DNA from: Cyanobacterium sp. uoEpiScrs1
Lineage (GTDB): Bacteria > Cyanobacteriota > Cyanobacteriia > Cyanobacteriales > Microcystaceae
Direction: 5' to 3'
Length of the DNA stretch: 64,000 nucleotides
NCBI RefSeq assembly: GCF_947331815.1
Contig: NZ_OX373462.1
Coordinates: 1,909,376 to 1,973,375 of the forward strand
In this document: piece by piece, positions 18,296 through 37,644 of the stretch
How positions within the stretch are numbered: position 1 is the first letter of the stretch
Layout: every line of letters starts with the position of its first letter
The notes under the pieces: generated by a model
Told to the model about the DNA's origin: nothing
The model's database searches: none
What the model saw: the letters and a program-made list of their open reading frames with translations, nothing else
Position numbers and translations under genes: made by a program

Positions 18296-19186
18296 TTATC
18301 TGCTAAAAATAATGACATCTTTTCCTACCACTGGACTACGAGCGATTAAATTACCTTGAAAATCAATTATATCTAACTTACGAAAGTTCAAACGTTGGGA
18401 ATGTTTAAACATACTACCAGCTAATGTATCTTGTTTTTTTTGTGTTAGTTGATACCATTGATTTCCTAATGTTATTATTAAACGACTTGTTTTAAAATTA
18501 ACTTTAATGAGCTCTATTAATCCTTCTGGATATTGATTTACTAGATCAATGGTATCATGTCGGATTGCTTCAACCAAATTTTGTTCCGGAGTCAATTTTT
18601 GCTCAGTAAGTAGTGATGTTTCTACAGGTTGAGATGTTTTAATAGATTGTGATGAGGAGAGAGTGTCTGCAACTTTGGGTTGAGATGTTACAGACGTATT
18701 TTCAGCTGAAGGGGTTAAGAGTAGAGGTAACAGTAAAGTCGAGGTAGATATAATTAAGATTGGTACGCTGACAATAATTATAGTAATTACTCCATTGGAT
18801 AGATTTGTATTCCAACTAGAGGGTAAGATTAAACGAAATGTATTTAGAAAACTATTCCACCAAATTTTAAATTCATTAGCTTTTTCCAAATTAGCGACAG
18901 AAATTGATGATGGTTTAGGAACTTCAGGGTTAGTTAATTTGTCTCGTTCTGTAATGTTTTCTTTATATGAATTTGGGGAGACTACTTTGGGAGTTAGAGC
19001 AGATTCGAGATCTGCTGCAATTATCTGAGCCGTTTCTGCTAAAACTTCTACAGTAGTCACTAATTTTGTGTCTGGTAAATTGTCAGGAGATACTTTTTTG
19101 AGCATCTCAATGATGCTACTTAGTTGCCGAGCAGTCACTTCTAATAAAAAAATCAACTGTTCTTGAGATAATTTTTTTTCCGGCAT
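18296..19186 (-). CDS. Cyanobacterial single-pass membrane protein of unknown function
   Basis: The 296-residue protein has a helical N-terminus (SQEQLIFLLEVTARQLSSII, residues 7-26). A linker with acidic and Ser/Pro residues leads to one strong membrane segment (VITIIIVSVPILIISTSTLL, about 133-152). The roughly 140-residue C-terminal part begins with a Ser/Thr-rich linker and ends in a domain with the stretch LITLGNQWYQLTQKKQD. I do not recognise the family, although it looks conserved rather than random. The start is the ATG at 19184-19186. It may be co-transcribed with the CRR7-like gene (58 bp apart). Confidence 0.6.
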   Translation of the reverse strand: MPEKKLSQEQLIFLLEVTARQLSSIIEMLKKVSPDNLPDTKLVTTVEVLAETAQIIAADLESALTPKVVSPNSYKENITERDKLTNPEVPKPSSISVANLEKANEFKIWWNSFLNTFRLILPSSWNTNLSNGVITIIIVSVPILIISTSTLLLPLLLTPSAENTSVTSQPKVADTLSSSQSIKTSQPVETSLLTEQKLTPEQNLVEAIRHDTIDLVNQYPEGLIELIKVNFKTSRLIITLGNQWYQLTQKKQDTLAGSMFKHSQRLNFRKLDIIDFQGNLIARSPVVGKDVIIFSR

Positions 19187-32069: not shown

Positions 32070-33263
32070 ATGAATCAATCCCTTCTCTCGGCTCCCTCTG
32101 GGGCTTTAAAAATTCCTTACTCTCCTGCAACTAAAGTAGTTGTTTGTGATTATCCTCCAAAATTCTCTCTCATTCTCCCAACTTATAACGAAGCCGGAAA
32201 TATTAAGAATATTATTGAAATTTTAAGTCAGTTGCTAGACCAATATATGCCAGGATGTTATGAAATCATAATTGTTGATGACAATAGTCCCGATTACACC
32301 TGGAAATTAGCTTTAGAATTAACTTCTAACTATCCACAACTACACGTAGTTCGTCGTGTTGATGAAAAAGGCTTATCAACAGCAGTTATTCGAGGGTGGC
32401 AAATAGCACAAGGAGAAATTTTGGGAGTTATTGATGCAGATTTACAGCATCCTCCAGAAGTATTAAAAAAATTATTAGAAGAAATGGACAGAGGAGCTGA
32501 TTTAGCGGTGGCAAGTCGTCATATTGAAGGAGGAGGTGTCAGTGAATGGAGTATTTTGCGTCGCTTTCTCTCCCGTGGAGCACAAATACTAGGATTAATA
32601 ATTCTTCCAGAAGTTATTAGCCGCCTCTCCGACCCTATGAGTGGTTATTTTATGGTGCGCCGTAGTGCAATAGCTTGTAAAACCTTAAGTCCAGTGGGAT
32701 ACAAAATTCTTATTGAGGTGGCTGCAAGAGGTTGTATTAGTTGGATTGCTGAAGTAGGTTATGTATTTAAGGAACGTCAGGACGGAGAGAGTAAAGTTAC
32801 TTGGAAACAATATGTGGAATATATTCAACATTTATTGAGATTACGCTTATCAATTTCAGCCCGATTTATCCAGTTTGGTTTAGTCGGATTGACTGGTGTT
32901 GTTGTTGACATGGTATTTCTTTATTTATTAAGTGACGAGACAGGCTTAGGGTTACCTTTAACCCGCAGTAAGATTATTGCAGCTGAGTTGGCTGTAATTA
33001 ATAATTTTCTCTGGAATGATTGTTGGACATTTGGAGATATTTCACGCCGACAACCGGGGAAAAGACAAAGATTAAAACGCTTAACTAAATTTAATTTAAT
33101 TTGTATGTTAGGATTAATACTCAATGTATTGTTTTTAAATGTATTTGTTAGTATTTTAAACTACAGTAAGTATTCAGCTAACCTACTAGCAATTTCTTTA
33201 GTAACTGTCTGTAATTTCTGGTTTAATCTTAAATTAAGTTGGCGAGTTACAGAAATTGACTAG
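32070..33263 (+). CDS. Glycosyltransferase family 2 fused to GtrA-type membrane domain
   Basis: The 397-residue protein has a GT2 catalytic domain similar to dolichol-phosphate mannosyltransferase. It includes the FSLILPTYNEAGNI start, the VDDNSPDYTW segment (about 71-80), and the DADLQHPPE metal-binding motif (about 127-135). The C-terminal 140 residues carry four hydrophobic segments with the GtrA signature (QFGLVGLTGVVVD; NNFLWNDCWTF). Such fusions attach sugars to polyprenyl phosphate and move them over the membrane for glycan decoration. The target glycan cannot be inferred. The ATG at 32070 opens the frame with no obvious Shine-Dalgarno. Confidence 0.9.
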   Translation: MNQSLLSAPSGALKIPYSPATKVVVCDYPPKFSLILPTYNEAGNIKNIIEILSQLLDQYMPGCYEIIIVDDNSPDYTWKLALELTSNYPQLHVVRRVDEKGLSTAVIRGWQIAQGEILGVIDADLQHPPEVLKKLLEEMDRGADLAVASRHIEGGGVSEWSILRRFLSRGAQILGLIILPEVISRLSDPMSGYFMVRRSAIACKTLSPVGYKILIEVAARGCISWIAEVGYVFKERQDGESKVTWKQYVEYIQHLLRLRLSISARFIQFGLVGLTGVVVDMVFLYLLSDETGLGLPLTRSKIIAAELAVINNFLWNDCWTFGDISRRQPGKRQRLKRLTKFNLICMLGLILNVLFLNVFVSILNYSKYSANLLAISLVTVCNFWFNLKLSWRVTEID

Positions 33264-33363: not shown

Positions 33364-35091
33364 TCAATATTTTCTTTCTTTCAATTCAAACATATCAATC
33401 ACCACAGGCATATATTGAATGTCAATTTCCACTGGAGAATAATAGGCTAAAGTATGTTTTAAGAAATTAATATCGTCTCTTTGTGGATAATCCTCCCGAG
33501 AATGCGCTCCCCGACTTTCTTGACGTCTTAGAGCAGAAGTAAGTATAATCTCTCCCACTATCATAACACTTTGCAATTCTAAGGACTCTATTAGTTCTGT
33601 ATTCCACAGATAACCTTTGTCATCAAGATAAACTTTATTATATTGTCGCTTTAATTCCTGAATTTTCACCAATCCATCCTCCATTTTATTTTTGGTACGA
33701 AAAACTCCACAATAGTCACTCATACAATCTTGAAATTGCTTACGTAATACTTCTAACCTAACAGTTCCTTTTTTATTTAAAAGAGTTTGAATTCCTTTTT
33801 TTGCTGCGTTTAAGTAAGTATAATGGTCTATTTTAGAAAACTTGCGATTTTGGACATATTCAGCGATATTTCTACCTATAATGCGTCCATAAACCACACA
33901 TTCCAATAAAGAATTACTGCCTAGCCGGTTTGCTCCATGAACTGAGATACAAGCACATTCTCCTGCTGCAAAAAAGCCTTCTGTTAATTGGGTTTTACTG
34001 AGGCGGACACGTCCCTGAGTATTAACAGGAATCCCTCCTATACAATAATGAGCAGTAGGGCGGACTGGGATGGGTTTATGGACTGCGTCAATTCCTATAA
34101 GTCGGTGTGCTTCTTCCCAACAAAACGGAACTCGACTCATTATCACCTCCTTTCCCATATGACGTAAGTCCAAATAAACACAAGGTCCACCAGGACTACC
34201 ATCAGGATAGACTCCTCGTCCTGCCAAAATTTCGCGGTTAATAGCACGAGAAGTAATATCACGAGGAGCTAATTCCATGCGAGAGCTGGCATAATCCTCC
34301 ATAAACCGTCTTCCTTCGCTATTAATTAGGTAGGCACCTTCCCCCCGTACAGCTTCAGAAATTAAAACCCCAACAGGATATAAACCGGTGGGATGAAATT
34401 GAACAAATTCCATATCTTCTAAGGGAATACCTGCCATTGCAGACATGGCTAAACCATCTCCTGTGGACGCATAATCATTAGAGGTTGTATTAAATACTCG
34501 TCCATACCCCCCTGTAGCAAACATGACTACTTTACTTTGGACAATTTCAATTTTGCCATCTTCGATGCGATACATGATAATCCCTTTCGCATCGCCTTCT
34601 TCAAGAATCAATTGCATCACATACCATTCATCATAGATAGTAACTTCATTACGATGAAGATTACTGACTAATTCATGGAGAATCGCATGCCCGGTTTTAT
34701 CCGCAGCGTAACAAGTACGATTATAAGCATGACCGCCAAAAGCTCGTTGAGCAATTTTACCATCTTCTAAACGAGAAAATAGTACACCTAAATGTTCCAA
34801 ATCGATAATCACATCAGGGGCTTCCTTTGTCAATAAAATAACTGCATCTTGGTCAGCAAGATAGTCTGAGCCTTTAACAGTATCAAAGGCATGAGACTCC
34901 TAACTGTCTTTAGGATCAGCATTTTTTAAACTGGCAGCTATTCCTCCTTGAGCCGCTACGGAATGCGAGCGAATAGGATGAGTTTTCGCTACAACAGCTA
35001 CATCAACTGTGGGGGTAAGACTTTTAATTTCCAGGGCGGCACGACACCCAGCTAATCCACCGCCAACAATAATGACATCGTGTTTTAACAT
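33364..35091 (-). pseudogene. sdhA: Succinate dehydrogenase/fumarate reductase flavoprotein subunit, interrupted by a stop
   Basis: Joined, the frame encodes about 575 residues, the normal length of cyanobacterial SdhA. The FAD motif (VGGGLAGCRAALE) and the HSVAAQGGI flavin-attachment region lie in the first 63 codons. Substrate-site segments (HPTGLYP, RPTAHYCIGGIP, GANRLGSNSL) lie in the rest. A TAG at 34900-34902 stands in NADPKDS-stop-ESHAFD, where the family has Trp, so one TGG to TAG change explains it. The frame is otherwise continuous. A TTG at 34831-34833 could start a 489-residue fragment lacking the FAD motif, which could not work alone. Either the gene died recently or the base is an error. 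Confidence 0.9.
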
Positions 35092-35346: not shown

Positions 35347-35418
35347 CTCCCCAGGTAGGATTCGAACCTACGACCAATCGATTAACAGTCGACCGCTCTA
35401 CCGCTGAGCTACTGAGGA
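35347..35418 (-). tRNA. tRNA-Asn (anticodon GTT)
   Basis: On the minus strand the sequence folds as a full cloverleaf. The 7-bp acceptor stem TCCTCAG/CTGGGGA includes one U-G pair. The D-arm is GCTCAGCGGTAGAGC, the anticodon loop CTGTTAA carries GTT, and the T-arm has the canonical GGTTCGAATCC. CCA is not encoded. It is the only tRNA I found in the window. Confidence 0.97.
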
Positions 35419-35637: not shown

Positions 35638-37644
35638 TTAACTTAAAACTTCTTTTGCCTTAGCAACAACATTCTCGACAGTATAACCAAATTCCTTAAG
35701 GACAACATCACCAGGAGCAGAAGCACCGAAAGTATCAATGCTGACGCTAGCCCCTTCATCCCCGACATAACGATGCCAGCCAAAACTAGTTCCTGCTTCA
35801 ACGGCAAGACGTTTTTTAACTGATTTGGGAAGAACAGACTCTTTATAAGCTATATCTTGTTCTTCAAATAATTCCCAGGTAGGCATAGAAACAACTCGAA
35901 CTTTTTTGCCTTCACTAGTCAATACTTTTGCCGCATCAAGACAAAGTTCTACTTCGCTACCAGTTCCAATGAGGATGATATCAGGAGTACCATCACAATT
36001 GCTAACAATGTAAGCACCTTTTGCTACTGCATCAATGGAACTTCCAGCTAGATTGGGTAATCCTTGCCGAGATAACGCTAATAAGGTAGGACGATGACGG
36101 TTTTCTATTGCAATTTTGTAAGCACCAGAGGTTTCATTTCCATCTGCAGGACGAATTACAATTAAGTTAGGAATTAACCGTAAAGATGCAATATGCTCAA
36201 CGGGTTGGTGAGTGGGTCCGTCTTCTCCTAAAGCTACAGAGTCATGAGTCATAACCCAAACTACTCCTGCTTCAGCTAGAGCAGAGATACGAATAGCGTT
36301 ACGCATGTAGTCGGTAAAAACGAGAAAAGTAGCACCGTAGGGGATCAACCCGGATCCGTGTGCCGCTATCCCATTGCAAATAGCTCCCATACCGTGTTCA
36401 CGCACCCCAAAACGAATATTACGATTTCCGTATTGCCCTTTTTGAAAATCTCCAAGACCCTTAAGTAAGGTTTTATTAGAGGGAGCTAAATCGGCTGATC
36501 CACCGATTAATTCAGGCAATACGCTAGCGATCGCATTCAAGGTTGCACCGGACTGGTTGCGAGTAGCGTCTTTTTTACTTTCGGGAGTATAAGTAGGAAG
36601 AGCTTTGTCCCATCCATCGGGCAAATCACCATTGGTCATCCGCTTTAGAAGAGCAGCATCTTCAGGATATTTAGTTTGGTACTGAGCAAACAATTTATTC
36701 CATTCTGCTTCATAGCTTGCACCACGAGCAACCGCTTTGCGAAGATGATCTAAGGCATCAGTAGGGAGGTCAAATGGAGCATATTTCCATCCCAAATGTT
36801 CACGAGTAGCCTTAACCTCATCAGCCCCTAAAGCTGCCCCATGGACATCGTGACTGTTAGCCTTGTTAGGAGAACCATAACCAATGGTAGTAGTAATTTT
36901 AATTAAAGAAGGCTTGTCGGTAACTGTTTTAGCTACTTCAATAGCATTAGCAATACCGTCTAAATCTGTATTACCATCTTTAACATGCTGAACATGCCAA
37001 CCATAAGCTTCAAACCGTTTGGAGACATCTTCCGTGAAAGAAATATCCGTAGAACCATCAATGGAGATATGATTATCGTCATATAAGGCTATTAGCTTAC
37101 CTAAACCCCAATGTCCCGCCAAAGAACAGGCCTCTCCGGAAATTCCCTCCATATTGCACCCATCGCCCAAAATCACATATGTATATTGGTCGATAATCTT
37201 ACAATCTGGTTTATTAAATTTTGCAGCTAAATGAGCTTCAGCTAGGGCTAACCCCACTCCGTTGGCAATCCCCTGTCCTAAAGGTCCAGTAGTAACCTCA
37301 ATTCCTTCAGTAACATGATTTTCAGGATGTCCAGGAGTCTTTGATCCCCATTGGCGGAATTGCTTAACGTCATCAATGGAAACACTGTCGTATCCAGTTA
37401 AACACAGCATCGCATAGTGAAGCATACAGCCATGTCCAGCCGAGAGGACAAAGCGATCACGATTTAACCATTTAGGATTTTTGGGGTTGTGCCGCATGAA
37501 CTTATCCCAAAGGACAAATGCCATAGGAGCAGCTCCCATCGGCAATCCAGGGTGTCCGGACTTAGCTTTTTCAACAGCATCAATGGACAAAAAGCGAATA
37601 GAATTAATGCACAGTTCTTCGAGTGACTGGGTGGCAACGACCAT
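35638..37644 (-). CDS. tktA: Transketolase
   Basis: The 668-residue enzyme moves two-carbon units in the pentose phosphate and Calvin pathways. The TPP-binding motif [13 protein letters not shown] lies near residue 155, with the usual [17 protein letters not shown] block before it. The pyrimidine domain (about 360-530) includes [15 protein letters not shown], and a C-terminal domain follows. It is intact and full length. In a symbiont without carbon fixation, this enzyme would serve the oxidative pentose phosphate route that feeds NADPH; carbon fixation cannot be judged from this window. It is read on the minus strand. Confidence 0.97.

Follow-up and report, generated by a model that had tools for sequence, protein, structure and literature searches.

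A succinate dehydrogenase flavoprotein gene (sdhA) that is open along its whole length except for one in-frame TAG raises the question of whether the enzyme has recently been lost, or whether the stop is suppressed, recoded or an error. The gene lies in a window of 64,000 nucleotides, which is the whole stretch of DNA analysed, from a genome (G000) of 2,483,960 bp in a single contig, 99.58% complete. The source is most likely the spheroid body, that is, the symbiont, of the marine diatom Epithemia pelagica; for the symbiont of E. pelagica UHM3201, an assembly of 2.48 Mb in one circular contig has been obtained from PacBio HiFi reads (PMC11167328). The sister symbiont genomes compared were G001 (3,072,807 bp), which its kinship, size and collinearity suggest to be another spheroid body, and G003 and G005, taken as the spheroid bodies of E. 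turgida and R. gibberula, with chromosomes of 2,794,318 and 3,020,309 bp, respectively, in Table 1 of PMC11131595. Four relatives with large genomes (G002, G004, G006 and G008; 4.5-5.2 Mb) were treated as free-living, G002 being SU2 and G006 being taken as Rippkaea PCC 8801 (4,679,413 bp in the same table). Nearly the whole window is collinear with the three sister symbionts (53.9 to 55.3 kb aligned within 80-kb stretches), and in each of them sdhA sits inside the collinear stretch.

The sdhA reading frame and its stop codon

The features of the locus, in window coordinates, are the following:

33364..35091, minus strand: sdhA remnant, cyanobacterial succinate dehydrogenase flavoprotein (translation; NCBIfam NF004613)
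34903..35091, minus strand: 63 codons ahead of the TAG, with GGGLAG and SHSVAAQGG (translation)
34900..34902, minus strand: in-frame TAG at codon 64, Trp in most relatives (translation; alignment to relatives)
33364..34899, minus strand: 511 open codons past the TAG, and the final stop (translation; NF004613)
32070..33263, plus strand: glycosyltransferase-like neighbour, named by inspection, intact, used as a dN/dS control
35347..35418, minus strand: tRNA-Asn (GTT), adjoining sdhA, at G000:C1:1944722-1944793 (tRNA search)
35638..37644, minus strand: transketolase-like neighbour, named by inspection, intact, used as a dN/dS control

Read from 35091 down to 33364, the gene starts with ATG and continues for 575 codons to a final TGA (576 codons including the stop), with the TAG at codon 64 as the single internal stop. 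The 511 residues that follow it score 1005 bits against the profile of cyanobacterial SdhA, NF004613, covering positions 65-575 of 575 and exceeding a curated cut-off (824 bits) that is set for the whole protein. What is missing is a single open frame linking the N-terminal segment, whose two motifs we take to be the FAD site, to the remainder of the protein. If the part downstream of the TAG were translated alone from a restart, its product would be without this segment. No second copy of sdhA was found in the genome among the 14 FAD_binding_2 matches examined, the sole other full-length one being NadB (L-aspartate oxidase).

Conservation of the protein was assessed on 94 loci, of which 93 were full length and 88 distinct; L003 and L103, which come from other broken copies, had been left out beforehand. 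The sequence-only reading had proposed that a single nonsense codon replaces the Trp of an SWESH segment, that the frame is continuous on both sides and that the joined length is the family norm, and the alignments bear out all three points. Residue 64 is Trp in 84 of the 88 distinct relatives (Pro in three and Ile in one), and the length from the aligned start is 575-576 residues throughout this set. Alignment to the intact sdhA of G002, G004, G006 and G008, none of which carries a lesion, revealed neither frameshift nor gap; one base difference is the entire sdhA lesion. Further, when the window was compared with ORFs of at least 120 aa taken from the matching collinear stretch in each of three relatives (42, 40 and 41 ORFs), the TAG at codon 64 was the sole internal lesion seen; the remaining rows of the comparison came from genes differing in their terminal stop, from the edge of the window and from antisense ORFs.

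Lesions in sdhB and in the sister symbionts

The same reading had called sdhA otherwise intact, which holds for the gene and does not hold for the enzyme: the partner subunit also carries a lesion. The one sdhB match in the genome starts at G000:C1:1168345 on the minus strand, about 0.78 Mb from sdhA; one base is deleted near 1167565, at codon 262 of 327 as counted in the relatives' frame. The codons past the deletion stay open in another frame, and the predicted SdhB has 275 aa. It scores 445 bits against the cyanobacterial SdhB profile NF009227 (cut-off 349 bits), matching positions 1-263 of 330. Because solved SdhB chains match a full-length relative up to residue 246 of 328 at most, the iron-sulfur core of the protein is predicted to survive and the conserved cyanobacterial C-terminal extension to be lost, and the sdhB lesion alone may not kill the subunit. 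The extension comprises about 80 residues past the region covered by the matched solved chains. Its last 65 or so residues are constrained in the large-genome relatives (dN/dS 0.11), and it is possible that it makes contact with the membrane or with quinone.

The three sister spheroid bodies carry sdhA in the same collinear stretch and have also lost the enzyme, each with more and other lesions than the window copy. The sdhA of G001 is interrupted by five stops (codons 185, 414, 435, 486 and 499) and three frameshifts (337, 472 and 527); that of G005 is interrupted by stops at 182 and 454 and has lost three bases at 132-133; in G003, 299 codons are gapped, stops occur at 41, 48, 65 and 559, and there are several frameshifts. 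The sdhB genes are likewise broken: that of G001 is stopped at 201, that of G005 has two stops (79 and 206) and a frameshift at 97, and that of G003 has nine stops besides the end, plus indels. A shared ancestral lesion in sdhA was rejected, as no stop or frameshift position is common to any two of the four spheroid bodies. In sdhB, G000 and G003 each have a -1 gap at one and the same column of the alignment (codons 262 and 263, respectively). A common origin of this gap was also considered, and it was counted, as a matter of judgement, as two events because the surrounding bases differ and G001 and G005 are without it.

Timing of the loss and alternative explanations

The age of the sdhA lesion was estimated with a codon model that allowed separate dN/dS classes per branch group. 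The gene gave 0.063 in the large-genome relatives, 0.071 on the spheroid-body stem branches, 0.087 on the G000 branch (profile interval about 0.06 to 0.127) and 0.306 on the tips of G001 and G005 together; G003 is too reduced for an estimate of the broken copy. On the G000 branch, a dN/dS of 1 was rejected (2dlnL 98.8) and equality with the relatives was not (2.1). A three-genome test was run as well. Its controls were 38 intact genes of the window, which remained from 40 rows once an antisense ORF and the sdhA fragment had been taken out, and their median on the G000 branch was 0.089; sdhA, at 0.076, had 11 of the 38 below it. On the other two branches, sdhA reached 0.319, a value attained by one of the 38. 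Estimates for sdhB were 0.088 in the relatives, 0.164 on the stem, 0.137 on the G000 branch and 0.291 on the broken tips, the G000 value not differing from that of the relatives (2dlnL 3.0) and being distinct from 1.0 (44.4). Among the 38 control genes, the highest dN/dS on the G000 branch (0.44; 0.32 on the other two) belongs to a 296-aa ORF at 18296-19186 on the minus strand, which is fast-evolving or partly relaxed.

If sdhA is assumed to have evolved at the rate of the relatives and then neutrally, the upper bound of 0.127 places the loss no earlier than about the last 7% of the branch. About one nonsense change would be expected if 3% of the branch had been neutral, and 3.4 if 10% had been. 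The loss of sdhA is thus young, since its dN/dS on the G000 branch is like that of intact neighbours and unlike that of the older broken copies (0.31); it occupies roughly 3%, and at most about 7%, of the branch, numbers that long branches and saturation may bias. Succinate dehydrogenase was kept on the shared spheroid-body stem (dN/dS 0.07 for sdhA) and was lost later by separate mutations. The lesion is absent from close relatives and the branch dN/dS is still low, as in a recent pseudogene; together with the sdhB lesion and the separate losses in the sisters, this supports the proposal, made from the window sequence, that a dependent symbiont has very recently lost its succinate dehydrogenase.

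Low dN/dS on the G000 branch, at the level of intact genes, is equally expected of an sdhA that is still in use, and to that extent it counts against loss. A real stop might be read through or suppressed often enough for some SdhA to be made, with the truncated SdhB still working, so that a reduced enzyme persists. This would agree with the preserved core of SdhB and its iron-sulfur domains, and with the Pro or Ile found at residue 64 in 4 of the 88 relatives, so that Trp is not essential there. Recoding of UAG, for example as pyrrolysine, and suppressor tRNAs are known, and they share with this locus an in-frame TAG inside an otherwise open gene. In contrast to those systems, no tRNA with a CUA anticodon was found here among 39 tRNA genes, all of them read by ARAGORN, and TAG is an ordinary terminator in the window, where it ends 10 of 39 ORFs. 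The tRNA search may miss some genes, and it was evidently incomplete, as no Leu-UAA tRNA gene was among those found either. The sequence-only reading had kept a suppressed or recoded stop as an alternative; of this, genome-wide reassignment of TAG was rejected as unlikely on the grounds of the anticodons found and the use of TAG in the window. As to read-through of this one codon, the enzyme has been lost in three sister symbionts and the constrained extension of SdhB is gone, and a persisting reduced enzyme is improbable.

An error of assembly or base calling, or a minor variant of a polyploid symbiont population that entered the consensus, would need little, since the lesions amount to no more than one changed base in sdhA and one missing base in sdhB. 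It would, however, have to be a coincidence that the second gene carries a separate lesion and that the enzyme is lost in three sister genomes. The published E. pelagica symbiont assembly was made from HiFi reads with Flye (PMC11167328), where the 298-fold coverage quoted is that of the diatom project and not the symbiont depth. Given the HiFi data and the second lesion, a base-call error is unlikely, and the explanation by error or minor variant as a whole is given only a very small probability. It could also be asked whether sdhA is an old pseudogene that by chance carries one lesion, as the sister copies are older pseudogenes. The window copy is slightly worn for an intact gene, because it departs at 5 of 263 near-invariant sites, and a leave-one-out count over the 88 intact relatives gives a median of 0 departures, with 2 at the 90th percentile and a maximum of 9. 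The copies in G001 and G005, however, depart at 18 and 16 of these sites, and both the dN/dS bound and the nonsense changes expected from a branch that is 10% neutral speak against great age, which makes this explanation scarcely credible. The most satisfactory explanation, held with high confidence, is that sdhA is an early-stage pseudogene and that the E. pelagica symbiont has lost the enzyme. In a young endosymbiont, a loss of this kind is nothing unusual.

The TCA pathway that remains

Under the reading of sdhA as an early-stage pseudogene, a nonsense mutation would have ended the gene after 63 codons and a 1-base deletion would have removed the C-terminal extension from sdhB. The symbiont presumably makes no active enzyme, and oxidation of succinate into the quinone pool has probably ceased. 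It may tolerate such a loss since it receives carbohydrate from its host and has other routes into respiration. What remains is fumarase, with a probable pair of enzymes leading from 2-oxoglutarate to succinate, and hence an open, non-cyclic TCA pathway. Fumarase has an open frame in all four spheroid bodies (TIGR00979 for G000), and the pair was located outside the window:

G000:C1 about 1829000-1831615, minus strand: probable 2-oxoglutarate decarboxylase and succinic semialdehyde dehydrogenase pair (L181 and L211)

It consists of a 455-aa ORF resembling succinic semialdehyde dehydrogenase, whose best model is NF006915 (639 bits, under the cut-off of 730), and an adjoining 556-aa thiamine-diphosphate enzyme. 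NCBIfam assigns the latter as acetolactate synthase; from its pairing with the semialdehyde dehydrogenase, we take it to be the cyanobacterial 2-oxoglutarate decarboxylase. In G001 and G005, too, these two neighbouring genes are open, and no open counterpart of either gene was found among the listed ORFs of G003. In G001 and G005, the two genes have dN/dS values of 0.137 and 0.064, far under 1 (2dlnL 117 and 184). Because the pair is constrained in these two genomes, where succinate dehydrogenase is long dead, it seems that succinate production, or the draining of 2-oxoglutarate, is kept by selection without succinate oxidation. It is conceivable, but rather doubtful, that succinate is a selected end product of the diatom endosymbionts, with the cycle split between symbiont and host mitochondria, or that the pair serves as a valve for 2-oxoglutarate. 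If so, the host would receive succinate for use in its mitochondria, or the pair would act on 2-oxoglutarate, a signal of nitrogen status. SucC-like open frames are also present in all four spheroid bodies (in G000, L228, G000:C1:1017528-1018082, minus strand). The G000 ORF, of 423 aa, scores 197.6 bits against a cut-off of 375.55 for the succinate-CoA ligase family, and the protein might consume succinate.

The respiratory complexes in the thylakoids of cyanobacteria include complex II (PMC3896814), and its absence from these symbionts is known in outline. A partial TCA cycle is already in print (PMC12903740), and as to the genomes that retain the succinate branch, the present results are in accord with that paper. 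Many TCA genes are missing in diazoplasts, where 2-oxoglutarate may build up (PMC11070190). UCYN-A, the nitroplast, is likewise a nitrogen-fixing endosymbiont without a complete TCA cycle and differs in that the whole cycle is described as absent (PMC12903740, section 9). No account of the present lesions, their independence or their timing was recognised in the literature searched, a search that stopped short of supplements such as Table S2A of PMC12903740, which marks broken genes. What is added here is the timing, the parallel lesions and the selection still acting on the probable 2-oxoglutarate-to-succinate pair where succinate dehydrogenase is long dead. A gene loss is caught near its start, with older stages of the same loss available alongside in the lineage, and the graded series of separate losses gives an order for the erosion of respiration in the course of becoming an organelle. 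The "incomplete TCA cycle" becomes a testable question, namely the destination of succinate.

The gene order of the window is common to the four spheroid bodies. In an 80-kb stretch around sdhA of G006, sdhA is all that blastn finds in common with the window. Section 19 of PMC12903740 asks whether the marine symbiont was a separate acquisition, and a gene order shared by the spheroid bodies and not by G006 is relevant to this question.
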